64,000 nucleotides of DNA from the NCBI GenBank assembly GCA_020849625.1, contig JADLFV010000068.1, positions 1-64,000 on the forward strand, given 5' to 3'. Positions 5,274-62,582 of this stretch are shown in pieces (position 1 is the first letter of the stretch; the number at the start of each line of letters is the position of its first letter). The notes beneath the pieces are model-generated. The model was not told where the DNA came from. It ran no database searches and saw only the letters and a program-made list of their open reading frames with translations. A program made the position numbers and the translations under genes. The DNA is from Phycisphaeraceae bacterium. GTDB lineage: Bacteria > Planctomycetota > Phycisphaerae > Phycisphaerales > Phycisphaeraceae.

Positions 5274-5372
5274 GGAAGGCACCAAGGCACCGAGGTACCA
5301 AGGCACCGAGATAGGGCATTCGAGGACCATTACCAAATCCTTGGTCCCTGGGTGCCTTGGTGCCTCGGTCCT
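5274..5372. repeat. Short-period repeat palindrome, unit GGCACCAAGGCACCGA
   Basis: Left arm (5274-5311) repeats GGCACCAA, GGCACCGA and GGTACCAA. Right arm (5341-5372) carries GGTGCCTTGGTGCCTCGGTC, the complement. It fills the gap between the acyl carrier protein stop and the next gene start in the same operon. An RNA hairpin here could weaken expression of the downstream hotdog gene. Confidence 0.85.
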
Positions 5373-6231: not shown

Positions 6232-6340
6232 GGGAAGGCACCAAGGGACCGAGGCACCGAGGCACCAAGGGAAAGAATCAGAGGTCACATCGCAGGCCCT
6301 TGATGCCTCGGTGCCTTGGTGCCTTGGTGCCTTCTTCCTT
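6232..6340. repeat. Short-period repeat palindrome, unit GGCACCAAGGGACCGA
   Basis: Left arm (6235-6272) repeats GGCACCAA, GGGACCGA and GGCACCGA. Right arm (6303-6332) repeats GGTGCCTT and TGCCTCGG. It has the same unit as the element at 5274-5372, about 900 bp away. It occupies the divergent gap between the FabZ-like gene and galK and ends 12 bp before the galK ATG. Confidence 0.85.
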
Positions 6341-18672: not shown

Positions 18673-19260
18673 TCAGTCCGCCAAGTAGAAATTCAACTGC
18701 GTGGTGCCGAAGACGTGGACACCGGGCCCGCGGAAGTGGTCGAAACTGGGCGGCGTGACATCCTTGGGCGTGCGCAGCATGACGCAGGCTACCTCCGCCA
18801 GGCGGGGGCGAAGCTCGGCCAGCAGGGGGGCGAAGCGATCGAAGCCGGCGGCTTCCTCCACCATGCGATAGGGCGGGTCCATCAGCACCATCGAGATCGG
18901 CGTTTGATCCAGTCGCAGCAGCCACGATGGATTGAGAGCATCGCTGCGCAGCACGCGGGCATAGCGGCGGGCATCGAGGGCGTCGAGGTTCTGCTCCAGG
19001 CGATCGGCGGCATCGCGGTCCTGCTCGATGAAGGTGCAGAAGTCCGCCCCGCGCGAGAGGGCTTCCAGGCCCAGGCTGCCGGTGCCCGCAAACAGGTCCA
19101 CGACATGGATCGGTTGCTCGGGCTCGTCATCGAAGAAGCCGTGGGCGGCCAGGCGGTCGAAGAGTGACTGCTTGACGCGATCGGTCATGGGGCGGGTGAC
19201 GGACTGATCGCGCGGGGGGATGAGTTTTCGGCCACGATAGTCTCCAGCGATGATGCGCAC
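18673..19260 (-). CDS. rsmD: 16S rRNA (guanine-966-N2)-methyltransferase
   Basis: A 195-aa SAM-dependent methyltransferase. MRIIAGDYRGRKLIPPR is the RsmD N-terminus; VVDLFAGTGSLGLEALSRGA is the SAM-binding motif I; LMDPPYRM is the catalytic DPPY. Known role: N2 methylation of G966 (E. coli numbering) in the 30S subunit. GTG 19260 gives the family N-terminus; the frame continues to TTG 19296. Confidence 0.93.
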   Translation of the reverse strand: MRIIAGDYRGRKLIPPRDQSVTRPMTDRVKQSLFDRLAAHGFFDDEPEQPIHVVDLFAGTGSLGLEALSRGADFCTFIEQDRDAADRLEQNLDALDARRYARVLRSDALNPSWLLRLDQTPISMVLMDPPYRMVEEAAGFDRFAPLLAELRPRLAEVACVMLRTPKDVTPPSFDHFRGPGVHVFGTTQLNFYLAD

Positions 19261-19330
19261 CGTGAGGAAGTTAGAAAGAAGTGGGCGTTGTTTCAACTCG
19301 TGCGCGATCTGAACTGGCAGTCAGCACGGA

Positions 19331-19352
19331 CCGGCGAGACGTAGCTCGCCGG
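19331..19352. repeat. REP-type hairpin CCGGCGAG/CTCGCCGG
   Basis: Perfect 8-bp stem with 6-base loop, followed by CTAT. It lies in the 173-bp divergent gap (19261-19433) between rsmD and the methyltransferase. Confidence 0.7.
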
Positions 19353-19433
19353 CTATTGGGTTGATGATTTTGCGAACTGCTCCAGACAGTTCGCTGCGTT
19401 GTTTCAATCGGCGGCAGCTTGTACAGTGCCCCG

Positions 19434-20243
19434 ATGAGTCCAACCAAGCCCAAGCATCGCAAACCCACTCTGGCTGACCAGGCCGACCGCTACAAACTCT
19501 ACGGCCAATCGGTGCAGGAGCCCGACCACGAGGTGGCCTTCTTCGACCAGGCCTACAAGGAAGCCTACGGCAGCAAACCGAAGCTGCTGCGCGAGGATTT
19601 CTGCGGCACGTTCGCCGTCTGCTGCGAATGGGTCAAGCGCGGCAAACAGCGGCAGGCCATCGGCGTCGATCTAGATCCCGAGCCGTTGAACTGGGGACGC
19701 GCCCACAACCTGGCCAAGCTCTCGGGCAATCAGCAGCAGCGGGTGAACCTGCTCCAGCAGGACGTGCGGCGGACGGACAAGGTCAAGGCTGACGTGCTGG
19801 CCGCCCAGAATTTTTCTTTCTGGATTTTCAAAACGCGCCAGGATCTGCTGCGCTACTTCAAGGTCGCCTATGCCAATCTCTCCAAGCGCGGCATCCTCGT
19901 GGCGGACATGATGGGCGGGGCTGACTGCTGGCTGGAGAACAACCAGGACGTGCGCAAGGTCAAAAGCTTCAAATACATCTGGGACTGCGTGCGTTTCAAT
20001 CCCATCACCCACGATTGCCTGTTCCACATTCACTTCAAGTTCAAGGACGGCAGCCGCCTGGAAGAAGCGTTCACCTACGACTGGCGGTTCTGGACACTGC
20101 CTGAGGTCTGTGAGTTGATGCGCGAGGCTGGCTTCCGTGAGACGAAGATCTACTGGGAGGGCGAGGACGAGGAAAACTGGTTCGCCACCCCGACCGCACC
20201 TGCCGATGCCTGCTGGTTAGCCTACGTGGTGGGGGTGAAGTAG
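19434..20243 (+). CDS. Class I SAM-dependent methyltransferase, substrate unknown
   Basis: A 269-aa protein. DFCGTFAVCCEWVKRG with IGVDLDPEPLNWG form the SAM-binding motif I and acidic post-I region. FSFWIFKTRQDLLRYF and LVADMMGGADCW follow in the place of motifs IV and V. The C-terminal half has the extra strands typical of small-molecule or protein methyltransferases (FWTLPEVCELMREAGF). Substrate not deducible. ATG 19434 preferred to TTG 19419. Its TAG stop is the first triplet of the repeat arm of the four-helix-bundle element that follows. Confidence 0.8.
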   Translation: MSPTKPKHRKPTLADQADRYKLYGQSVQEPDHEVAFFDQAYKEAYGSKPKLLREDFCGTFAVCCEWVKRGKQRQAIGVDLDPEPLNWGRAHNLAKLSGNQQQRVNLLQQDVRRTDKVKADVLAAQNFSFWIFKTRQDLLRYFKVAYANLSKRGILVADMMGGADCWLENNQDVRKVKSFKYIWDCVRFNPITHDCLFHIHFKFKDGSRLEEAFTYDWRFWTLPEVCELMREAGFRETKIYWEGEDEENWFATPTAPADACWLAYVVGVK

Positions 20244-20706
20244 GGAGTAGTTTAGGGAGTAGGCAGTAGGCAGTAGGGAGTAGAGGATTTAAGATGGGCG
20301 ATGAAGGTGACAGCGGAGCGATTCGCTCATATCGGGATTTGGTGGTGTGGCAGAAGGCGATGGACCTGGTGGATGCGGTTTATGAGTTGAGCAGCCGGTT
20401 TTCTGCGGAGGAAAAATATGCGCTGACCAGCCAGTTGCGCAGGGCGGTGGTGTCGGTGCCATCCAACATCGCCGAAGGCTACGGCCGGCAAAATCTTTGC
20501 GACTACATGCACCATCTGGCAATCGCCAATGGTTCGCTGAAGGAAGTCGAAACCCAGATCATCGTCGCCGGCCGCCAGAACTACATTACACGTGAAGATT
20601 CGCGTGTCGCCTGGGGTTTATGCCAGGAAGTCGGCAAACTGCTGAACGCTCTGAGAAAATCGCTATCCTAATCCCCTACTGCCTACTGCCTACTCCCTAC
20701 TGCCTA
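20241..20706. mobile_element. Four-helix-bundle gene enclosed by inverted short-period repeat arms (element 1)
   Basis: Left arm 20241-20284 repeats TAGGGAG and TAGGCAG (AGTAGGCAGTAGGCAGTAGG). Right arm 20672-20706 is the complementary CTACTGCCTACTGCCTACTC. Between them sits only the gene 20294-20671. The element takes up the whole space between the methyltransferase stop and hisS, whose ATG comes 6 bp after the right arm. The same unit forms gene-less palindromes at 21978-22118 and 25677-25807. The architecture recalls 23S rRNA intervening sequences, where a stem encloses a gene of this family. Confidence 0.75.
20294..20671 (+). CDS. Four-helix-bundle protein (S23 / 23S rRNA intervening-sequence family)
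   Basis: A 125-aa all-helical protein with the family core: SYRDLVVWQKAMDLVDAVYE, then ALTSQLRRAVVSVPSNIAEG (the VSVPSNIAEGYGR hallmark), then ANGSLKEVETQIIVAGR. Known: homologues are encoded in 23S rRNA intervening sequences, and a related fold (Avd) binds reverse transcriptase in diversity-generating retroelements; molecular function is unclear. GAGG lies 7 bp before ATG 20294. It stands alone between inverted repeat arms, so RNA-hairpin binding is an attractive inference. Confidence 0.93.
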   Translation: MGDEGDSGAIRSYRDLVVWQKAMDLVDAVYELSSRFSAEEKYALTSQLRRAVVSVPSNIAEGYGRQNLCDYMHHLAIANGSLKEVETQIIVAGRQNYITREDSRVAWGLCQEVGKLLNALRKSLS

Positions 20707-20712
20707 GCAACA

Positions 20713-22008
20713 ATGAAATTCCAATCCCCCAAAGGCACACGCGATTTCTACCCGCAGGACATGGCCTGGCGCCAGTTCCTGACCGACGCCTGGCGCAGCG
20801 TTTCCGTCCGTCACGGCTTCGAGCAGGTCGATGGCCCGATCTACGAGACGCTCGACCTCTACAAGGCCAAGAGCGGCGAAGGCATCGTCAGCGAACTGTT
20901 CCACTTCGAGGATCGCGGCGGGCGCGAGATGGCCATCCGCGCGGAGTTCACCCCCACGCTGGCCCGCATGGTGGCCGCCAAGGCCAACACGCTGTCGCGG
21001 CCGATCAAGTGGTTCGCCATTCCCAACCTGGTTCGCGCCGAGCGGCCCCAGCGCGGTCGCTTGCGCGAGCACTGGCAGTGGAACGTCGATTTGCTGGGTG
21101 TCGATTCACCGCAGGCCGACGCGGAAGTGATCGGGGTGGCGGTGGATTTTCTGCGCCAGGTGGGACTGACGCCGCAGCAGGTGCACGTCAAGATCAGCCA
21201 CCGCCGCGTGGTGCGGGCCATCCTGGCCAAGCTGGGCGTGCCGGATGAAAAGATGACCGAGGCCTTCGAGTTGCTGGATCGCCGGGACAAGATTCCGCCC
21301 GAGCAGTTCACGCAGAGCGCGATGAGCCTGGGACTGGACGAGCCGCGCGTCGAGCGCTTCAGCCAGATGTGCCGCCGCAAGTACCACACCGGCGACATCG
21401 ATCACCTGCGCCGCTCCATTGGCCTCGATGACTCCTTCAACGACCTGGGCGAACTGGACGCCCAACTGTCCGCCTTCGGCCTGACCGACTGGTGCGAATA
21501 TGACCTGGGCATCGTGCGCGGCCTGGCGTATTACACCGGCACCGTGTTCGAGCTGCACGAAGTGTCCGGGGTCGAACGCGCCATCGCCGGCGGCGGACGA
21601 TACGACCAACTCATCGAAACCTTCGGCGGACCGGCCATGAGTGCCGTCGGGTTCGGCATGGGCGACGTGGTCGTCACCAACGTGCTGCGCGACAAGGGCC
21701 TGCTGCCTGAGGACGTGGCGCCCGCGCCCGATGCCTTCGTGATCGCTTTGACCGATGCCGCCCAGGCTCAACTGCCGGGCGTCGTGGCCGCCCTGCGCCG
21801 CGCCGGCCGCCATGCCCGATTCAGCTACAAGGCCGGCCGCAACCTCGGCAAGCTGCTCAAGGAAGCCAGCCAGTGCCGCGCCCGTTTCGCCGTGATCCTC
21901 GACGACAAGGCGGCTGAGGGCGTCTGCGAGTTGAAGAACCTAGCCTCAGGTGAGCAGAATCAGGTGACGATCGAGGGTGTAGGGGATAGGGTGGGCAATA
22001 GTGAGTAG
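20713..22008 (+). CDS. hisS: Histidyl-tRNA synthetase
   Basis: A 431-aa class II synthetase. Motifs: KGTRDFYPQD at the N-terminus, AEFTPTLARM (motif 2 region with RAERPQRGRLREHWQWNVD), LGIVRGLAYYTGTVFE (HisA/B region) and GGGRYDQLIETFGG. The anticodon-binding domain occupies the C-terminus. Upstream is the repeat arm of element 1, so no ribosome site is visible before ATG 20713. The last residues (GVGDRVGNSE) and the TAG stop lie in another repeat element, so both gene ends touch repeats. Confidence 0.95.
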   Translation: MKFQSPKGTRDFYPQDMAWRQFLTDAWRSVSVRHGFEQVDGPIYETLDLYKAKSGEGIVSELFHFEDRGGREMAIRAEFTPTLARMVAAKANTLSRPIKWFAIPNLVRAERPQRGRLREHWQWNVDLLGVDSPQADAEVIGVAVDFLRQVGLTPQQVHVKISHRRVVRAILAKLGVPDEKMTEAFELLDRRDKIPPEQFTQSAMSLGLDEPRVERFSQMCRRKYHTGDIDHLRRSIGLDDSFNDLGELDAQLSAFGLTDWCEYDLGIVRGLAYYTGTVFELHEVSGVERAIAGGGRYDQLIETFGGPAMSAVGFGMGDVVVTNVLRDKGLLPEDVAPAPDAFVIALTDAAQAQLPGVVAALRRAGRHARFSYKAGRNLGKLLKEASQCRARFAVILDDKAAEGVCELKNLASGEQNQVTIEGVGDRVGNSE

Positions 22009-22118
22009 GCAGTAGGCAGTAGGGTTGTGACCCGAAACCCACGGCACTACGGCCTACATCCTTGGCCTTGTGCTACCGCCTATTCCCTACTCCCCACTGC
22101 CTACTGCCTACTCCCTTT
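21978..22118. repeat. Short-period repeat palindrome, unit TAGGCAG
   Basis: Left arm (21978-22025) repeats TAGGGGA, TAGGCAG and TAGGGTT. Right arm (22079-22118) repeats CTACTGC and CTACTCC. The spacer of about 55 bp has no gene. Same unit as element 1 and the palindrome at 25677. It contains the hisS stop codon and ends 17 bp before the next gene. Confidence 0.88.
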
Positions 22119-22134
22119 CCACTACAATCTCCCC

Positions 22135-22644
22135 GTGGCCCATCGCCGCTTCCACTACGACCGGGCGTTCGAGCATTATCTTCGCAGCAACGGCATCCCC
22201 TACGTGGCCGTGGACGAAGCCAAGCGGGCCTTGGCTGGGCGCAGCGAGCAGATCAAACTCAAGAGCTTCGACTTCGTGGTTTACAGCGAGTCGGGCGACA
22301 ACCTGCTGATCGACGTCAAAGGCCGCAAGCACTCGGGCAAGACGGGCAAGAGCTTGCAGAACTGGGTGACGCGCGATGACGTGCGTTGTCTGAAGCAGTG
22401 GTCGTCGATCTTCGGGCAAGGGTTCGCCTCAGCGTTCGTGTTCCTGTTCTGGTGCGATGTGCCGCCGCCGGATGCGTTGTTCATGGAGGTGTTCGAGTTC
22501 GGCGATCGCTGGTACAGCGTGCTGGCGGTGAAGCTGGACGATTACGAGCCGCACCTGCGCCCGCGCAGCGCCAAGTGGGACACGGTGTCGATCCCGGCTG
22601 AGGTCTTCGGGCGTGTTGCGGTGCCGCTGAAGAAACTGCTCTGA
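22135..22644 (+). CDS. Unknown protein with a possible PD-(D/E)xK nuclease-like core
   Basis: A 169-aa soluble protein starting at GTG 22135 (MAHRRFHYDRAFEHYL). The segment SFDFVVYSESGDNLLIDVKG has the spacing of a PD-(D/E)xK nuclease core (Asp, about 12 residues, then D-x-K), and a conserved-looking GRKHSGKTG follows. The C-terminal half is beta-rich (FVFLFWCDVP, WYSVLAVKLDDY). This is inference from a weak motif; I do not recognise a named family. ATG is lacking and no ribosome site is obvious, since the upstream repeat ends only 17 bp away. Confidence 0.6.
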   Translation: MAHRRFHYDRAFEHYLRSNGIPYVAVDEAKRALAGRSEQIKLKSFDFVVYSESGDNLLIDVKGRKHSGKTGKSLQNWVTRDDVRCLKQWSSIFGQGFASAFVFLFWCDVPPPDALFMEVFEFGDRWYSVLAVKLDDYEPHLRPRSAKWDTVSIPAEVFGRVAVPLKKLL

Positions 22645-22649
22645 TTTAG

Positions 22650-22770
22650 AACCCTCTCCCCCTGGGAGAGGGCAGGGTGAGGGCGGATCGATCGTGTTCG
22701 CGTTGTCACGATTGATGCCTCAAGCAAGTTCGGCCCTCACCCCAACCCTCTCCCAAGGGGAGAGGGGGTG
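22650..22770. repeat. Palindrome of ACCCTCTCCC/GGGAGAGGG type
   Basis: Left arm ACCCTCTCCCCCTGGGAGAG with GGCAGGGTGAGGGC (22650-22684) faces right arm GGCCCTCACCCCAACCCTCT with CCCAAGGGGAGAGGG (22732-22766). Similar CCCTCACCC-AACCCTCTCCC palindromes occur widely in GC-rich bacterial genomes. It fills the gap before ileS. Confidence 0.85.
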
Positions 22771-22831
22771 GTTAAACGGTCTTCGGCATGTTCCGACGAA
22801 ATCGGCTGCCAGCGGATAAACTACGCCCATT

Positions 22832-25672
22832 ATGTCCGACCCCAGCACCGAAAAGAAGTCCTACAAATCCACCCTCAACCTGCCCAAAACCGCCTTCGCC
22901 ATGAAGGCCAACCTGGTGCAGACCGAGCCCGCCAGCCAGAAACGCTGGCACAAGATCAATCTCTACGCCCGCATTCAGAAGGACCGGGCTGATCGCAACT
23001 GCCCCCGCTACGTCTTCCACGACGGCCCGCCCTACGCCAACGGCTCCATCCACCTCGGGCACCTGCTCAACAAGTGTCTCAAGGATTTCGTCGTGCGCAG
23101 CCGGCTGATGCTCGACTTCCAATGCCCCTACGTGCCCGGCTGGGACTGCCACGGCCTGCCCATCGAGCACAAGGTGATGCAGGACCTGGGCGCCGCGGCC
23201 CGGGAGATGCAGCCGATCCAGGTCCGCCGCAAGTGCAAGAGCTCCGCTGAAAAGTTCGTCAAACTCCAGAGCGGCCAGATGCAACGGCTGCTCACGCTCG
23301 CGGACTACAACGAACCCTATCTCACCATGGACCCGGCTTACGAAGCTGCTACGCTGGAGGTCTTCGCCGACCTGGTCGAAGCGGGTCTGGTCTATCGCGG
23401 CCTGAAACCCGTGCACTGGTCGATCGAAAATCGCACCGCGCTTGCGGATGCGGAGTTGGAGTATTACGACCGGGAAGATACGAGTGTATATGTGAAGTTC
23501 AAGATCGATGAGGTTGGTCACTTACAGCAGGATGACCTCAAACCACTTTTGGGCTCCAGTCTTTTGATTTGGACAACTACTCCTTGGACATTGCCCGCAA
23601 ATCTCGCTGTAGCAATCCACGAGGGATATGACTACGGCTTGTATGAACTACCCGATGGCAGCAGGGTGGTAGTTGCTGTTGACCTGGCCGAGAAAGTGCT
23701 CAGCAGAGGCGGATATACGAACATTGCTCCATCAAAAGTATACCGTGGTACGCAATTGGTTAGACCGTTACAGTATGTGAAATACAAGCATCCGTTCATT
23801 GAACGCTCGGGAAAAATAGTCGCCGCTGATTACGTCACGCTCGAAGATGGCACCGGCCTGGTGCACACCGCACCGGGGCACGGCGTCGAGGACTACCAGA
23901 CCGGCCTGCGCGAGGGGCTCGACATCTACTGCCCTGTGCGCGAGGACGGCACGTTCGATGACACAGTGCCCGATTGGCTGCGGGGCAAGAGCGTGTGGGA
24001 GGCCAACGAGTTGGTGTGTGTAAAGCTGCGCGAGAGCGCGCACATGTTCCACGAGCACAAGTTTACGCACAGCTATCCGCACGACTGGCGGGGCAAGACG
24101 CCGGTGATCTTCCGAGCGACGGAGCAGTGGTTTGTCGATGTGAATAAGCCGTTCAAGAACGGCGACACATTGCGGCAGCGGGCGCTGGATGTGACAGCCA
24201 GGGATGTGAAGTTCATCCCCGAGTGGGGCCGCAACCGCATGCGCGGCATGTTGGAGTCGCGCCCCGACTGGTGCCTGTCGCGGCAGCGGGCCTGGGGCCT
24301 GCCTATTCCCGCGTTTTATCCCCCGGAAGGTGTGGATGGTCCGCCGCTGCTGACTGCCGCGTCGGTTCGCGCCGTCGCCCGCACCGTGCGCGAGAACGGC
24401 TCCGACTGCTGGTTCCTCGCTCCCGCGCAGGATTTGCTCCAGTACTACAAGCCCGAGGATGACCCCGACGCACCCGACTGGATCAAGCCTCAAGCCTCAC
24501 CCCTCAAGCCTTCCTCCGACATCTTCGACGTCTGGTTCGAGTCCGGCTCGTCCTGGAATGCCGTCATCCGCCAGCGCTTCGGCGATGACGCTTTCCCCAC
24601 CGACCTCTACCTGGAAGGCTCCGACCAGCACCGCGGGTGGTTCCAGCTTTCGCTGCTGCCGGCCATCGGTGTCACGGGCCAGTCGCCGTTCAAAGCTGTG
24701 TTGACCCACGGCTTCATGGTCGATAAGGACGGCAAGAAGATGTCCAAGAGCCTCGGCAACACGCTCGAGGTCGAGGAACTGCTGAAGAATTACGGCGCGG
24801 ATGTTTGTCGCTGGTGGGTCAGCTCGCTGAACACGGACAACGACATCAAGGTCGATGAAAGCTACTTCAAGCTGGCGGGCGAAGAGTATCGCAAGGTGCG
24901 CAACACGATCCGTTACCTGCTCAGTTGCCTCAATGATTATGATCCCCAGCAACCGCAGCCGGAGTTGATGGAACTGGACAAGTGGCTGATGGGCGAGCTG
25001 CGCGAGTTGGTGCGCGACGTGCGCGGCTGCTACGAACGCTTCGAGTTTCGCCGCATTCACGAGCGGCTGTTCAACTTCTGCAACGACACGCTCTCGGCGG
25101 TGTACCTGGCGGCGGTCAAGGATCGCACTTACTGCGACAAGCCCGACAGCCCGCGGCGGCGCAGCGCACAGGCGGCCATGCACTGCACCGCATCGGCGTT
25201 GATCCGACTGCTGGCGCCGCTGCTGCCGCACACGGCCGATGAAGCGTGGAACGTGCTGAATCCCCAACTTCCGGGGAACGCCAGTGTGCACATGGAGACG
25301 TTGCCGCAGGAGAGCGAGATCGCTTTCGCTGCATCCGCGCTGCCGTGGTCGCAGTTGATGGAAGCCCGCGATGCCTGGCTGCGAGCGATCGAAGCGTTCC
25401 GTCAGGCCAACGGCATCGACAATCCGCTGGACCTGGGCCTGCGCATCGATGCATCAACGGAGGCGCTGGATGGTTTCGACCCGGTCGATCTGGCGGACCT
25501 GTGCGGCATCAGTCGCGTGGAGGTTGCCACTTCCGGTGGAGGTGGCGTGCAGGTACTGGACCTGCGCAGCGAGCCGCGCTGCGACCGCTCGTGGAAGCGC
25601 GACGGCTCGGTGAAGCAGCGCAGTGACGGCGGCTGGTTATCGGATCGTGACGCGGAGGCGGTGGGGGTGTGA
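22832..25672 (+). CDS. ileS: Isoleucyl-tRNA synthetase
   Basis: A 946-aa class I synthetase. ANGSIHLGHLLNK holds the HIGH motif near residue 70, WTTTPWTLPANLAV marks the editing domain and GKKMSKSLGNTLEV the KMSKS loop. Three oddities. About 360 bp in the editing region (23461-23820) are only about 47% GC by my count, against over 60% around it. The repeat CAAGCCT (24482-24513) is translated as IKPQASPLKPS just before DVWFESG. The C-terminal zinc-binding segment is degraded: CDRSW replaces the usual CxxCW and no second cysteine pair is seen. No ribosome site is obvious at ATG 22832. Confidence 0.95.
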   Translation: MSDPSTEKKSYKSTLNLPKTAFAMKANLVQTEPASQKRWHKINLYARIQKDRADRNCPRYVFHDGPPYANGSIHLGHLLNKCLKDFVVRSRLMLDFQCPYVPGWDCHGLPIEHKVMQDLGAAAREMQPIQVRRKCKSSAEKFVKLQSGQMQRLLTLADYNEPYLTMDPAYEAATLEVFADLVEAGLVYRGLKPVHWSIENRTALADAELEYYDREDTSVYVKFKIDEVGHLQQDDLKPLLGSSLLIWTTTPWTLPANLAVAIHEGYDYGLYELPDGSRVVVAVDLAEKVLSRGGYTNIAPSKVYRGTQLVRPLQYVKYKHPFIERSGKIVAADYVTLEDGTGLVHTAPGHGVEDYQTGLREGLDIYCPVREDGTFDDTVPDWLRGKSVWEANELVCVKLRESAHMFHEHKFTHSYPHDWRGKTPVIFRATEQWFVDVNKPFKNGDTLRQRALDVTARDVKFIPEWGRNRMRGMLESRPDWCLSRQRAWGLPIPAFYPPEGVDGPPLLTAASVRAVARTVRENGSDCWFLAPAQDLLQYYKPEDDPDAPDWIKPQASPLKPSSDIFDVWFESGSSWNAVIRQRFGDDAFPTDLYLEGSDQHRGWFQLSLLPAIGVTGQSPFKAVLTHGFMVDKDGKKMSKSLGNTLEVEELLKNYGADVCRWWVSSLNTDNDIKVDESYFKLAGEEYRKVRNTIRYLLSCLNDYDPQQPQPELMELDKWLMGELRELVRDVRGCYERFEFRRIHERLFNFCNDTLSAVYLAAVKDRTYCDKPDSPRRRSAQAAMHCTASALIRLLAPLLPHTADEAWNVLNPQLPGNASVHMETLPQESEIAFAASALPWSQLMEARDAWLRAIEAFRQANGIDNPLDLGLRIDASTEALDGFDPVDLADLCGISRVEVATSGGGGVQVLDLRSEPRCDRSWKRDGSVKQRSDGGWLSDRDAEAVGV
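24482..24513 (+). repeat. In-frame short-period repeat in ileS, unit CAAGCCT
   Basis: ATCAAGCCTCAAGCCTCACC then CCTCAAGCC. It encodes IKPQASPLKPS between conserved synthetase blocks. Single arm only. Confidence 0.7.
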
Positions 25673-25676
25673 GGTC

Positions 25677-25807
25677 AGGCAGTAGGGATTAGGCAGTAGG
25701 CAGTAGGGTTGTTGTCCGCGATTGATTGTGTCATGTAACGCCTCACTGGCTGAAGGTCTAAACCCTACTCCCTAATCCCTACTGCCTACTCCCTACTCCC
25801 TACCCCC
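25677..25807. repeat. Short-period repeat palindrome, unit TAGGCAG/TAGGGAT
   Basis: Left arm GGCAGTAGGGATTAGGCAGT (25678 on) and right arm CCCTACTCCCTAATCCCTAC (25763 on) share one unit, around a spacer of about 50 bp. Same unit as element 1 and 21978-22118. It fills the gap between ileS and the next gene. Confidence 0.88.
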
Positions 25808-25832
25808 CTAACCCCTGCGCTCAATCCAGCCG

Positions 25833-26243
25833 ATGATGGCGCAGATGAGCCAGAGCATCATCGAGCTTCCGGTTGATCGTGTGCAGGAGGCGGTGGACTT
25901 CGCCAAGGCGATGAACTGCCCGGCCACTGCGGATCAGGTTCGCTACACGGTCAGCCTGCTGGCCTCTGACGAGGACAGGATCATCGGGCTGGCGCTGGCC
26001 CACGAGGTCGGCGATGGCCGCATCGACCTCTACGTCGGCTACGGCGAAGGGAGCGGTGAATCCGGGGGCGATTCCGGGGGCGATTCCGAGGGTTTGACCC
26101 TGGCCCGGCAACTGGCGGACAAGGCGTTGCATAAGATCCACAGTCAGGGCGTGCATCGCTGCCGCATCGTGCCCATGGGCAAAGCTGACTGCCGCGAGTT
26201 CTGGCAGCAGGTCAACTGGCTGGACCACGCGCTGACTTCTTAG
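25833..26243 (+). CDS. Small hypothetical protein
   Basis: A 136-aa soluble protein of no recognised family. Predicted alternation of helix and strand (ELPVDRVQEAVDFAKAMNCP, LASDEDRIIGLALAHEVGDG, RCRIVPMGKADCREFWQQVN) gives a compact alpha/beta domain. A Gly/Ser loop (GEGSGESGGDSGGDSEG) in the middle is encoded by a repeated TTCCGGGGGCGA, so it is a local expansion of the dispersed CCGGGGGC motif. The start is uncertain (ATG at 25833, 25836 or 25845). It stands between a repeat palindrome and the NtrC-type gene. The 150-bp gap after it holds an imperfect GGCCGCTTCA hairpin (about 26270-26317). Confidence 0.5.
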   Translation: MMAQMSQSIIELPVDRVQEAVDFAKAMNCPATADQVRYTVSLLASDEDRIIGLALAHEVGDGRIDLYVGYGEGSGESGGDSGGDSEGLTLARQLADKALHKIHSQGVHRCRIVPMGKADCREFWQQVNWLDHALTS

Positions 26244-26393
26244 CGAAACAGGCTCCCGGTGCCCGATAGAGGCCGCTTCAATGGGGCGGTAGCACGCTCC
26301 AATGAAGTGCAGCGGCCATTGTTGATTTATCGCAACGTTTGATTAACCAGCCCGCCGATCGGGCCGATGTTCATGTTGTCGGAACGCAACACG

Positions 26394-27824
26394 ATGTCCG
26401 AGAACGTGCGCATCTTGATCGTCGATGACGACCCTGTGGTCGCTGAATCACTCAGCCAGTTCCTCAAGGCGGAGGGTTACGCCACCGCCACAGCCGGGGA
26501 CGGCGACGAAGCGATGGGCATGATCGAAAAGGCGGCCGGGAACGGGGCGTTCTCCATCGTCATCACCGACCTGATCATGCCACGCTGTGACGGCATGCAG
26601 CTACTCAAGCGGCTGCGCAAGAAGTTCAGCTCCATCGTGCCCATCGTGATCACCGGGTTCGGCAAGATCGAATCGGCGGTGGAGGCGGTCAAGCTGGGCG
26701 CTGCGGACTATCTGACCAAGCCGCTGGTCGATGATGAACTTCGCCTGGCGGTGAGCAAGGCGGTCAATCAGCAGACGTTGCTGGCCGAGAACGCCACGTT
26801 GCGCGGGCAATTGGCGGAACGCTTCGGCATGGGCAGCCTGGTGGGCGGCGACTATCGCATGCAGAAGGTCTATGACCTGGTCGATGCGGTGGCCCCCAGC
26901 AAATCCACCGTGCTGATCACCGGCGACTCGGGCACCGGCAAAACGCTGGTGGCTCGCGCCATTCACGGCGCCAGCGAGCGACGACATCGGCCTTTCGTCA
27001 CCTTCGGCTGCGGCTCGATTCCCGAAACGCTGCTGGAAAGCGAACTGTTCGGCCACGTCAAAGGTTCATTCACCGGCGCCGACCGCGACAAGGCCGGCAA
27101 AATCCTCGCGGCCGATGGCGGCACGCTCTTCATCGATGAAATCAACTCAGCCACCGCCGCCCTGCAAATGAAGCTGCTGCGCGTGCTGCAGGAAAAACAG
27201 TTCGAGCCCGTCGGCTCCACGCAGACGATCACCGTGGATGTGCGTTTCATCCTGGCGTCGAACCAGTCGCTGTTCGACCTGGTGCAAGAAGGGCGTTTCC
27301 GCGAGGACCTGTACTACCGCATCAACGTGGTGAACATCAAACTGCCGCCGCTGCGCGAACGAGCGGGCGACGTGCAACTGCTGGCTGAGCACTTTCTGGC
27401 TCGCTTCTGCCACGAGATGAGCCGCGACCGCCGCTTCAGCGAGGACGCCATGGCTGCGCTTCAGGCGCACGACTGGCCGGGTAACGTGCGCGAGTTGGAG
27501 AATGCCGTCGAGCGTGCCGTACTGCTGAGCAAAGGTCCGACGATCGAGCTGGCCGACCTGCCCGAGACGTTGACGAATCCCGCCTGGGGCAACAGTCCCG
27601 CCAACCGCATCGCCCGCCGCAGCGGCTTTGCGGCCGGTGACGCGGACTTTTCCTGGTCGCCGATGCCGCTGTGCGAAGCGATGAAGGACCCCGAGCGCCG
27701 CATTCTTCTGGCGGCCCTGGAAGCCAACAACTGGAACCGCCAGGAAACCGCCCGCCAACTCGACATCAACCGCACCACGCTCTACAAGAAAATCAAGCAG
27801 TACGGGTTGGACGAGCCGGGTTAG
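26394..27824 (+). CDS. Sigma-54-dependent response regulator (NtrC family)
   Basis: A 476-aa three-domain regulator. Receiver domain (residues 1-125): VDDD acidic pocket, TDLIMPRCDG with the phosphoacceptor Asp, and the conserved Lys in YLTKPL. AAA+ domain: Walker A GDSGTGKT, ELFGHVKGSFTGA (the GAFTGA sigma-54 contact loop with Ser for Ala), Walker B GGTLFIDEI and the arginine finger region REDLYYRINV. Fis-type HTH at the C-terminus (RQETARQLDINRTTLYKKIK). No histidine kinase is adjacent, so the signal is unknown; pili or exopolysaccharide control would be typical. ATG 26394 is chosen over 26367. Confidence 0.93.
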   Translation: MSENVRILIVDDDPVVAESLSQFLKAEGYATATAGDGDEAMGMIEKAAGNGAFSIVITDLIMPRCDGMQLLKRLRKKFSSIVPIVITGFGKIESAVEAVKLGAADYLTKPLVDDELRLAVSKAVNQQTLLAENATLRGQLAERFGMGSLVGGDYRMQKVYDLVDAVAPSKSTVLITGDSGTGKTLVARAIHGASERRHRPFVTFGCGSIPETLLESELFGHVKGSFTGADRDKAGKILAADGGTLFIDEINSATAALQMKLLRVLQEKQFEPVGSTQTITVDVRFILASNQSLFDLVQEGRFREDLYYRINVVNIKLPPLRERAGDVQLLAEHFLARFCHEMSRDRRFSEDAMAALQAHDWPGNVRELENAVERAVLLSKGPTIELADLPETLTNPAWGNSPANRIARRSGFAAGDADFSWSPMPLCEAMKDPERRILLAALEANNWNRQETARQLDINRTTLYKKIKQYGLDEPG

Positions 27825-37784: not shown

Positions 37785-38301
37785 GGCAAATGTCTAATGC
37801 CTAATGTCTACTGTCTAATACCACAAATCTCTCATGCTTAGAAGGGGGCATTTGATGACAGGGGACGCGGGTGAGGACACGGGGCAGAAACAGAGTTACG
37901 ACTTGGAGGAAAGGACGGCTAGATTTGGGCAGGACGTGATCGCATTTGCCAAGACCCTATCGCGGTCCACGATCAATGAAGTCTTGATAAAGCAACTGGT
38001 AAGATCAGGAACGAGCATCGGGGCCAATTACTGTGAGGCGGACGATGCAGAAAGTCGAAAGGACTTTCGTCACAAGGTCGGCTTGTGTAAGAAGGAATCG
38101 CGGGAAACCAAGCACTGGTTTCGCATGATAGCAACCGCTGAACCAACGCGGCGAAGTGAAGTGGTTGTGCTCTGGCGTGAGGCAAAGGAACTTCATTTGA
38201 TCTTCACTTCAATTCGCAGGAGCATCGATGCCGGCTAACCACCATACATTACCCGCCGACTTCCCAGGCATTAGACATTAGTCATTAGACATTAGACATT
38301 C
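37785..38301. mobile_element. Four-helix-bundle gene enclosed by inverted short-period repeat arms (element 2)
   Basis: Left arm 37785-37821 repeats AATGTCT, AATGCCT and ACTGTCT. Right arm 38266-38301 carries GGCATTAGACATTAGTCATT and ATTAGACATTAGACATT, the complement. Only the gene 37855-38238 lies between. The repeat unit is unrelated to that of element 1 although the architecture is the same. The element fills the space between hemB and the next gene, whose ATG follows 6 bp after the right arm. Confidence 0.75.
37855..38238 (+). CDS. Four-helix-bundle protein (S23-like), second and divergent copy
   Basis: A 127-aa all-helical protein. LEERTARFGQDVIAFAKTLS, VLIKQLVRSGTSIGANYCEA and DFRHKVGLCKKESRETKHWF follow the family helix pattern; GTSIGANYCEA replaces the SVPSNIAEG signature. 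Subfamily differs from the copy at 20294, so the two were probably acquired separately. GGGGG lies 6 bp before ATG 37855. GC is visibly lower (about half) than neighbouring genes, a sign of transfer. Function unknown, as for the family. Confidence 0.85.
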   Translation: MTGDAGEDTGQKQSYDLEERTARFGQDVIAFAKTLSRSTINEVLIKQLVRSGTSIGANYCEADDAESRKDFRHKVGLCKKESRETKHWFRMIATAEPTRRSEVVVLWREAKELHLIFTSIRRSIDAG

Positions 38302-42553: not shown

Positions 42554-43150
42554 CTACTGCAGCTTGCGCGGCATGGTGGAAGCGACGATGCGAATGGGCG
42601 GGAGATTGCCAACCTCGACCTGCATCGTGTTGTCCTGGTCGGGCTGGACGGTCAGATCCATCGAGCCGCGCTCGAGCACGAGCACGCCCTGGCTGTCGGT
42701 TCGGCGGAACAGATGGAACACCGCCTCGGTCACGCCGCCCAGCAGAGGCTGTTCGAGTTCACCGGCCCCTTCGTCATAAACCACCCAAAGCTGCTGAACG
42801 TCACTGCGGTACTCGACGCGGACATAGCGGCCGTGGGCGTCGAGCAGCTCGATGTAGTTGCTCTCGATGACGTCGCCGTCGAGGGTGGCGTTGGGCGGAT
42901 CGGGCAGCAGCGGGCCGTGGGCGGTGCTGGTACGGACCAGTGCCAGCAGGCGATGGGTGACCATGCGGGTGGCGGTCTGGCTGGAGGCCGACTGGGCGGC
43001 CACGGCATAAGCGTGGAAGCTGGCGTCTATGGCGACCATCGTGGCCGTGAGCAGCAGCGCGGTGATGGCCAGGGCGATGAGCATTTCCACGAGGGAGAAG
43101 CCGCGAGGAGATTTGCGAATTTTGATTTTAGATTTTAGATTGCTTTGCAT
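42554..43150 (-). CDS. Minor pseudopilin (PulJ/GspJ-like)
   Basis: A 198-aa prepilin-like protein. The type III signal is RGFSLVEMLIALAITALLLT, cleaved after Gly, followed by the membrane helix. Size and C-terminal part (VTEAVFHLFRRTDSQGVLVL) fit GspJ-like minor pseudopilins, sometimes with weak identity. The leader before the cleavage site (QSNLKSKIKIRKS) is encoded by the AATCTAAA repeat arm. Last gene of the minus-strand pilus/secretion cluster that starts at pilT. Confidence 0.82.
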   Translation of the reverse strand: MQSNLKSKIKIRKSPRGFSLVEMLIALAITALLLTATMVAIDASFHAYAVAAQSASSQTATRMVTHRLLALVRTSTAHGPLLPDPPNATLDGDVIESNYIELLDAHGRYVRVEYRSDVQQLWVVYDEGAGELEQPLLGGVTEAVFHLFRRTDSQGVLVLERGSMDLTVQPDQDNTMQVEVGNLPPIRIVASTMPRKLQ

Positions 43151-43209
43151 GTGGATCGCCCGTGTGGTTGTTTTCCAAATCTAAAATCGCAAATCTAAAA
43201 TCTAAAATT
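43110..43209. repeat. Short-period repeat palindrome, unit AATCTAAA
   Basis: Left arm GATTTTAGATTTTAGATT (43124-43141) and AATTTTG face right arm AAATCTAAAATCGCAAATCT (from 43177) and AAAATCTAAAATT. Spacer about 35 bp. It contains the start codon and leader of the pseudopilin and ends 5 bp before the preceding gene's stop. Confidence 0.88.
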
Positions 43210-57500: not shown

Positions 57501-58465
57501 TCGGCGATGGCGTCCTCGTGTTCCTTCAGTTGCCGGGCGGCGCGGGCGCGGTCGGCCTCGGCCTGCTCCAGTTGATCAGCCAAGGCAGCCAACTGCGTCT
57601 GCAGGCGGTGATGCTCGCAGAGTGAGTCAACCAGTTGCAGTTCGTGCAGGCGCTGCGTGTGTTCCTGGAATGAGCGGGCGCGGGCGGCCTGCATCTTGAC
57701 GCTGCGCAGGCGGCGCTCGGTGTCTTCCAAACGGGTGCGGACCAGGGCCAGATTCTGCTCGGTCTTTTCCAGGTGACGGGCGGCTTCCTTCTTGCGGGCC
57801 TTGAAACGGCTGATCCCGGCCGCCTCCTCGAAGATTACGCGGCGCTGCTCGGGATTGGAGTCAAGCATCTGGGCGACTTTGCCCTGCTCGATGACGCTGT
57901 AAGCGTCGGTGCCGATGCCGGTGTCCATGAACAGTTCGCGGATGTCGCGCAGGCGGACGCGGCGGCCGTTGATCAGGTACTCGCTGGTGCCGTCACGGAA
58001 AAGCTGGCGGGTGACGGCCACGGTGTCCAGATCGACGGGCAGAGCGCGGGAGGGTCGGGTATCGGGTATCGGGTTTCGGGTTTCGGATTTTGCATCCGAG
58101 GCTTCGCCGGACGGCTCAGCCTGCAGCTTCTGCGTGGATTCGGGACCATCAGCTTCCTCCCGATACCCGATACCCGATACCCGATACCCGTTGTCTTTGA
58201 TCACCGGATTATCGAAGGTCAACGTCACGCTGGCCATGCCGCAGGGTTTGCGGGTGGCGGATCCGTTGAAGATCACGTCCATCATGGCCCCGCCGCGCAG
58301 GCTCTTGGCCGACTGCTCACCGAGGACCCATTTGATGGCATCGACAATATTGCTTTTGCCGCAGCCGTTGGGCCCGACAATGCCGACGATGGGCGGATCG
58401 AAGGGAATCTCGGTCCGGTTGGCGAACGACTTGAAACCGGCGAGTGTAAGCTTGGCCAGACGCAT
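54596..58465 (-). CDS. smc: Chromosome segregation protein SMC
   Basis: A 1289-aa SMC ATPase. [15 protein letters not shown] at the N-terminus with Walker [15 protein letters not shown]; two coiled coils (about residues 240-560 and 760-1090) around a hinge (residues 570-720, [20 protein letters not shown]); signature [17 protein letters not shown] and Walker [20 protein letters not shown]. Known role: chromosome condensation and segregation with ScpAB. It is about 100 aa longer than usual; part of the excess is a 45-50 residue insertion in the N-terminal head encoded by a repeat palindrome (58054-58190). Confidence 0.96.
58054..58190 (-). repeat. Short-period repeat palindrome inserted in frame in smc, unit GGGTATC
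   Basis: Left arm 58054-58091 (GTCGGGTATCGGGTATCGGG and TTTCGGGTTTCGG) faces right arm 58154-58190 (CCCGATACCCGATACCCGAT and ACCCG). On the coding strand the arms give [10 protein letters not shown] and [12 protein letters not shown] around a spacer of about 25 residues. It separates LTFDN from [15 protein letters not shown], which adjoin closely in typical SMC heads. Confidence 0.9.
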
Positions 58466-62462: not shown

Positions 62463-62582
62463 GGAAATTCGAAACTCGAAACTCGAAATAAATCCCAAAC
62501 CCCAAAGTTCACCCTGGTACGGCTTTTCCTGTTCGAGTTTTGAGTTTATTTCGAGTTTCGAGTTTCGGATTTCGAGTTTTTG
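62463..62582. repeat. Short-period repeat palindrome, unit TCGAAACTCGAAA
   Basis: Left arm GAAATTCGAAACTCGAAACT with CGAAATAAATCCCAAA faces right arm GAGTTTATTTCGAGTTTCGA with GTTTCGGATTTCGAG. The spacer of about 30 bp has no gene. It lies between the AraC gene and the aminotransferase gene. Confidence 0.88.

Follow-up and report, generated by a model that had tools for sequence, protein, structure and literature searches.

What is a gene of the S23/IVP family doing between two inverted arrays of heptamers, in the gap between a methyltransferase-like gene and hisS? The question is raised by the 64,000-nucleotide stretch of Phycisphaeraceae DNA analysed here (the window), for which an earlier note had proposed that this gene and its arms are an autonomous form of the repeat palindromes and are built on the plan of the 23S rRNA intervening sequences. 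On the whole, that interpretation was supported by the present analysis: the S23 element is real, mobile and widespread.

Anatomy of the element

The upstream flank of the element is a gene at 19419-20243 (+ strand) that adjoins hisS in relatives; the name methyltransferase-like is that of the earlier note, as neither Pfam nor NCBIfam gave the ORF a match at 1e-3. Its stop codon TAG (20241-20243) lies inside the first repeat unit of the left arm, a tandem array of TAGGGAG/TAGGCAG heptamers at 20241-20289 (+), in which the repeat is less regular between the first unit and the main arm (20244-20252). The S23/IVP gene, which encodes a four-helix-bundle protein of 125 residues, follows at 20294-20671 (+), with an AGAGGA ribosome site just 5' of its ORF. 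The right arm (20670-20706, +) is the reverse complement of the left one (CCTACTGCCTACTGCCTACTCCCTACTGCCTA) and ends 6 bp before the ATG (20713-20715) of hisS (20713-22008, +), whose own stop TAG (22006-22008) falls within the opening repeat of the palindrome that follows. Positions 20253-20289 and 20670-20706 can pair into a stem of 37 nt with 89% complementarity, and its core of 26 nt (20253-20278 with 20674-20699) is 100% complementary. The anatomy described in the earlier note was thereby confirmed, from the TAGGCAG unit in inverted arms and an S23 gene with its own ribosome site as their sole content to the shared stop codon and the 6-bp distance to hisS.

The best local alignment between the upstream flank and the reverse-complemented downstream flank scored 27, whereas 50 shuffles gave at most 10, so the arms are not a product of chance. 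In the genome, 89 matches to the tract pattern TAGGVAGTAGGVAGTAGG compare with four to the reversed control pattern. The 125-residue ORF matched both PF05635 (E-value 1.5e-36, 125.3 bits, cut-off 33.8) and TIGR02436 (E-value 7e-34, 116.3 bits, cut-off 24) well above their curated cut-offs.

Arms around other S23 genes

The sample used to judge how general this arrangement is comprised 157 distinct S23 loci from planctomycete relatives, other phyla and plasmids (Planctomycetota, Cyanobacteria and Bacteroidota are among the phyla included), and a locus was called armed at an inverted-arm score of at least 14. By this measure 116 of the 157 loci (74%) were armed, nearly all of them with period 7 or 8, compared with 37 of 2,456 size-matched control ORFs (1.5%); the latter count is an overestimate, since several of the best control hits in the source genome proved to be S23 genes or antisense frames of these. 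If the 17 syntenic Flavobacterium loci are treated as one, 110 armed sites remain out of 141, or 122 out of 141 when weaker arms of period 7 to 9 are added. All ten plasmid loci, from the four phyla represented by Cyanobacteria, Gemmatimonadota, Azospirillum and Riemerella, were armed, as were two of the three S23 loci on viral contigs in IMG/VR (the third scores 13.5); phage records gave no S23 match. Neither of the two outcomes that the earlier note had set against its own reading, namely that most homologues lack such arms or that arms are equally common around unrelated genes, was encountered. Short repeats are prone to assembly error, and yet an artefact of assembly, or chance, can for practical purposes be dismissed: the element is found in complete plasmids and chromosomes, and the 157 loci were tested against shuffles as well as control ORFs.

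About 14-20 S23 genes have no arms, and some of these may have been domesticated. Several of them appear to group together (L006, L283 and L284; L285 and L287; L243 and L252), possibly as domesticated copies. Unusual arm periods of 9 or 11 were seen at L088, L220 (Magasanikbacteria) and L282.

Empty and filled sites

The methyltransferase-like gene and hisS are separated by 7-122 bp in ten genomes of the family that have no S23 gene at this place, which bears out the view of the earlier note that the element was inserted into a tight intergenic gap. The gap is longer in other relatives, and in L292 and L304 it holds other period-7 or period-8 tracts. The comparison with element-free strains that the same note had suggested could be extended to near-identical plasmids, which likewise lack the whole element. 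Plasmid C of Trichormus variabilis carries an element of which arms and gene are missing together from plasmids 97% identical to it; among the cyanobacterial plasmids as a whole, the relatives without arms and gene are 85-97% identical, and the element of Nostoc C052 plasmid D is missing from homologous plasmids. Further empty sites were found in a Calothrix integrase gap, which measures 3 bp in its empty form, and in the cas10-cmr3 gap of Picosynechococcus, whereas those at nrd and cas6-cas4 are less clean. Conversely, L098 has about 416 bp in common with L102 and L158, which is the element only, and the surroundings differ. Precise empty sites, from which the arms are absent along with the gene, and homologous elements at different sites show that the element is mobile. 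At five junctions we found no target-site duplication of constant length and no target motif; short direct repeats (GTAAT and GATTCT) are present at two of them and absent from the others. A decayed remnant of an S23 element lies on Nostoc C052 plasmid E (L146, 1941-2075), where the T. variabilis plasmid has its element.

These sites also bear on the alternative that the arms are regulatory or homogenised tandem repeats of the host and the S23 gene is a host gene caught between them, functional (for example, in the processing of operon mRNA) and not mobile. We regard it as very unlikely, as it has to contend with the joint absence of arms and gene at precise empty sites, with homologous elements at unrelated sites and with the patchy distribution of S23 genes, which are present in 40 of 61 relatives. 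What it would explain is the occurrence of one syntenic site in 17 Flavobacterium species, where the S23 insertion is under strong purifying selection (dN/dS 0.068, compared with 0.052 for the upstream gene). Purifying selection is seen in S23 genes more widely (dN/dS of about 0.07-0.15, with 0.10-0.15 for diverged plasmid copies). The upkeep of the gene at one old Flavobacterium site suggests some benefit or addiction that a purely selfish model does not explain. The Flavobacterium elements (L077, 2974-3397, and 16 other loci) lie in an apparent sdhA-sdhB gap, where the element is genus-wide and its arms are reduced to about two units.

Gene-less palindromes in the source genome

Six TIGR02436 genes are present in the source assembly (4.82 Mb in 154 contigs). 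Five of the six have inverted arms, each built of a different heptamer (GGGTATC, TAGGCAG, ATTTTAG, CTCGAAA and AATGTCT), and the sixth (L006) has no inverted arms. The AATGTCT element is the second one of the window, with its left arm at 37789-37817 (+), the core of its S23 gene at 37909-38226 (+; TIGR02436, 67.9 bits) and its right arm at 38269-38300 (+). A de novo scan for inverted tracts in 745 kb of the source genome (681 kb of stretches plus the window) yielded 143 tracts of period 7, with 32 inverted pairs among them, and 32 of period 8, with seven such pairs; periods 5, 6, 9, 10 and 11 gave no inverted pairs. Within these 745 kb, the simple inverted pairs with a spacer of 360-450 bp are the S23 elements. 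The gene-less palindromes have spacers of 17-94 bp, with one of 199 bp, and all five S23 arm units recur among their units. The two kinds also share a polarity, as the 5' arm is the G-rich one in 28 of 32 gene-less palindromes and likewise in S23 elements (97 versus 9). Two wide-gap pairs (L104, 11652-12216, and L131, 14186-14714) were considered as S23-less elements and rejected; each consists of a complete palindrome and a separate tract, separate insertions that surround ordinary genes (an rbfA-like one in L131).

Two gene-less palindromes with the TAGGCAG unit lie downstream of the element, one with a 55-bp spacer in the gap behind hisS (22004-22116) and the other (25683-25807) directly after a long, isoleucyl-tRNA synthetase-like ORF (22832-25672). 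The S23 element, which shares units and inverted arms with such palindromes, may be their autonomous form. Some palindrome families have no S23 partner, however: in the source assembly, this is the case for both main period-8 units and for ATCCGCC and AAGCCTC, and none of the S23 genes there was found to have arms of period 8. Gene-less palindromes number 30 in 681 kb of the source genome, 2 in 400 kb of other S23-bearing relatives and none in 292 kb of S23-less genomes; their density was accordingly rejected as a general marker of S23 genomes, being weak outside the source genome. Elsewhere in the window, gene-less palindromes with the units AAAATCT, AAACCCG and AAACTCG are located at 43120-43208, 58055-58190 and 62464-62574, and two period-8 palindromes (5276-5369 and 6235-6333) have the unit AAGGCACC, which, like AAGGAGAC, recurs across the source genome.

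Arm units and S23 proteins

The similarity of arm units rises with the identity of the S23 proteins (rho 0.25, against a maximum of 0.06 in 200 permutations), and period-8 units cluster by protein, with 15 of 21 nearest neighbours sharing the period where 3.8 were expected. Mean unit similarity is 0.628 for S23 proteins 50-80% identical in different genomes and only 0.491 for paralogues within one genome (p = 1e-11). Host composition is not the cause of the similarity, because same-genome paralogues are no more alike in their units than distant proteins are (0.484). Both the sequence and the length of the unit thus follow the S23 protein and not the host genome. This co-variation could be explained equally well by co-inheritance in cis and by binding; the matching gene-less palindromes argue for an action of the S23 protein in trans.

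Arm length is counted in units, with 4.43 units per arm at period 7 and 4.38 at period 8 (p = 0.22), whereas in nucleotides the arms measure 31 and 35, respectively (p = 0.012). The value of about 4.4 units at either period fits a unit-by-unit recognition by a ring of about five subunits. A strict count of five units per arm was rejected: most arms have 3-6 units and some are long (for example, the left arm of L094), so that counting by a pentamer is offered as a hypothesis only.

Structure of the S23 protein and proposed mechanism

The AF2 model of the window protein (pLDDT 91) has the four-helix-bundle fold of Xcc0516 (2GSC), its best structural match, with a Z-score of 22.8 and 0.8 Å over 115 residues (VIA-align). 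BT_0352 (2RLD) follows with a Z-score of 18.3, and the Avd proteins of diversity-generating retroelements (DGRs; 4DWL and 8UB7) with 15.6-16.1 (VIA-align), in match lists that leave room for further relatives. Both family crystals, 2GSC and 2RLD, contain five chains each. The likeness to DGR Avd is one of fold (Z about 16) and not of sequence, as the 125 bits against PF05635 compare with 30 bits against the NCBIfam Avd profile (DivGenRetAVD, 30.4 bits, cut-off 80), which places the protein outside that family; the Pfam bAvd score of 43.3, just above the cut-off of 40, is also far below the PF05635 match.

The explanation that we consider probable as a whole combines a mobile element, a pentameric ring that reads its arms and mobilisation by host chemistry. 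It starts from direct observations (the anatomy and its generality, the empty sites, the co-variation, the arm length counted in units and the matching gene-less palindromes). On this reading the element is minimal: its length of about 460 bp is taken up by a single S23/IVP gene and the inverted arms on either side of it, each made of about 4-5 tandem copies of a 7- or 8-bp unit. Insertion takes place where co-directional genes lie close together, frequently just past a stop codon and in sense, so that the S23 gene rides the transcript of the host operon. To judge from the five chains of 2GSC and 2RLD and from the fold relative Avd, the S23 protein may form a pentameric ring that recognizes its own arm, each subunit reading one unit. 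Palindromes that have the matching unit but no gene would then be non-autonomous, MITE- or REPIN-like partners mobilised in trans, and the chemistry of copying and insertion might be supplied for the most part by replication or repair enzymes of the host, recruited to the protein-bound hairpin. Against this explanation as a whole, no catalytic domain was recognised in the S23 protein and the five junctions gave no constant target-site duplication.

Alternatively, the S23 protein might itself be the recombinase, its Q-R-S-N-E/E residues forming an active site, so far not recognised as such, for cleaving and joining the hairpins of the arms in the way HUH transposases act on REP sequences. The nearly invariant polar residues of the armed proteins (Q47, R50, S54, N58 and E84) give this idea some appeal: Q47 is present in all 114 armed proteins, E84 and S54 in 113 and N58 in 110, despite the fact that many pairs of these proteins are <30% identical, and S23 is the only gene in the element. 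We nevertheless find it doubtful, as the Avd-like four-helix bundle is no known nuclease, the conserved residues may be structural and the five junctions have neither a constant target duplication nor a target motif.

Orientation and the role of RNA

Where the flanking genes are co-directional and the orientation could be called (69 loci were ambiguous), the S23 gene is in sense in 40 cases and in antisense in two, mostly at a distance of 0-20 nt from the upstream stop codon. Such a bias is equally typical of ordinary operon genes. It would also suit an RNA route, with the element moving like a supposed retro-mobile rRNA intervening sequence: the arms would form a stem in the operon transcript, to which the S23 protein would attach in the manner of Avd on DGR RNA, and insertion would be accomplished by a reverse transcriptase or by the joining of RNA. 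The fold kinship to Avd, a component of the DGR reverse transcriptase RNP, points the same way, as do the strong folding of the window element as RNA (z = -6.1, with the arms as closing stem) and the S23 ORF contained in the RNase III-excised stem of the Coxiella burnetii 23S rRNA intervening sequence (PMC4990558). However, among the arm mismatches G.U does not outnumber A.C on the sense strand (80 versus 98, p = 0.2), which leaves selection for an RNA stem unsupported, and no reverse transcriptase is annotated beside the plasmid copies examined. We therefore hold the RNA route to be unlikely and, given the lack of a wobble preference, favour arms that act at the DNA level, with transcription borrowed from the operon.

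Relation to known systems

The best reading of the window element is that of an intergenic cousin of the 23S rRNA intervening sequences whose ring protein recognizes its own arm units. The likeness claimed in the earlier note, a stem that encloses an S23 gene, stands, and it extends to a size of about 430 bp, complementary ends around a single S23 ORF, a patchy distribution and the epithet selfish (PMC4990558). The location does not match, as the intervening sequence sits in helix 45 of the 23S rRNA whereas the window element lies between the protein genes for the methyltransferase-like product and hisS, and 19000-26500 gave no Rfam match. In addition, each element of the window type builds its arms from tandem copies of a heptamer or octamer of its own, and S23 elements have gene-less partners in the same genome.

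A RAYT is a Y1 HUH transposase gene flanked by its own REP repeats. Like the REP/REPIN-RAYT system, with its dispersed short palindromes of REP type (REPINs; PMC3116915), the S23 system combines one gene flanked by its own type of repeat with dispersed short palindromes. Only an S23 gene, and no transposase, lies between the arms, however, which sets a four-helix bundle and tandem-unit arms against the Y1 HUH nuclease and single hairpin of the former.

Period-7 intergenic repeats have been reported from Xanthomonas (GGGAATC) and Nostoc (GGGGA(C/T)T) without association with a mobile element (PMC4692102); GGGAATC is G-rich and forms 70-75 convergent (inverted) pairs per genome (PMC4692102). For the TAACTGA repeats of Beggiatoaceae, a repeat-binding protein acting as a mobile element was only a matter of speculation (PMC4679880). 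Unlike S23 arms, these orphan heptamers showed no mobile-element association in the source papers, but we infer that they are tied to S23 elements, and GGGAATC may be tied in this way to Xcc0516. S23 elements may in this way account for heptamer repeats scattered through many bacterial genomes. No paper joining heptamer repeats with the S23 family was found in a search that excluded most subscription journals, so the novelty of the link is provisional. It is possible, though we lean slightly against it, that all this amounts to a bacteria-wide class of mobile elements with a new mechanism, in which an Avd-like pentameric ring would read tandem arms of heptamers or octamers, each subunit taking one unit, would move its own gene and gene-less palindromes and would be the source of the orphan heptamers in Xanthomonas, Nostoc and Beggiatoa, DGR Avd having descended from such a protein.

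The S23 elements give a genomic role to a large family whose annotation goes no further than 'four helix bundle protein' or 'ribosomal S23', in a system where the specificity of the protein could be read from the DNA beside its gene. Where an S23 gene is met inside a cas, sdh-like or conjugation operon, it is probably an insertion. Those in cas operons might be taken for CRISPR-associated genes; the 23S rRNA IVP is included among the CRISPR-linked domains shown in a figure of a large CRISPR survey (PMC10910872). The cas6-cas4 gap of Dolichospermum (L147, 933-1177) is occupied by a different hairpin (AGTAGGTTGGGTT...AACCCAACCTAC) and no S23 element. An S23 element lies in the cas10-cmr3 gap of a type III-B cas operon (L097, 1963-2390) and another in the cas6-cas4 gap of a type I-D operon (L094, 1632-2480), where the left arm (1632-1830) has expanded into a very long tandem array with the units AGGTGAC/AGGGAAC.
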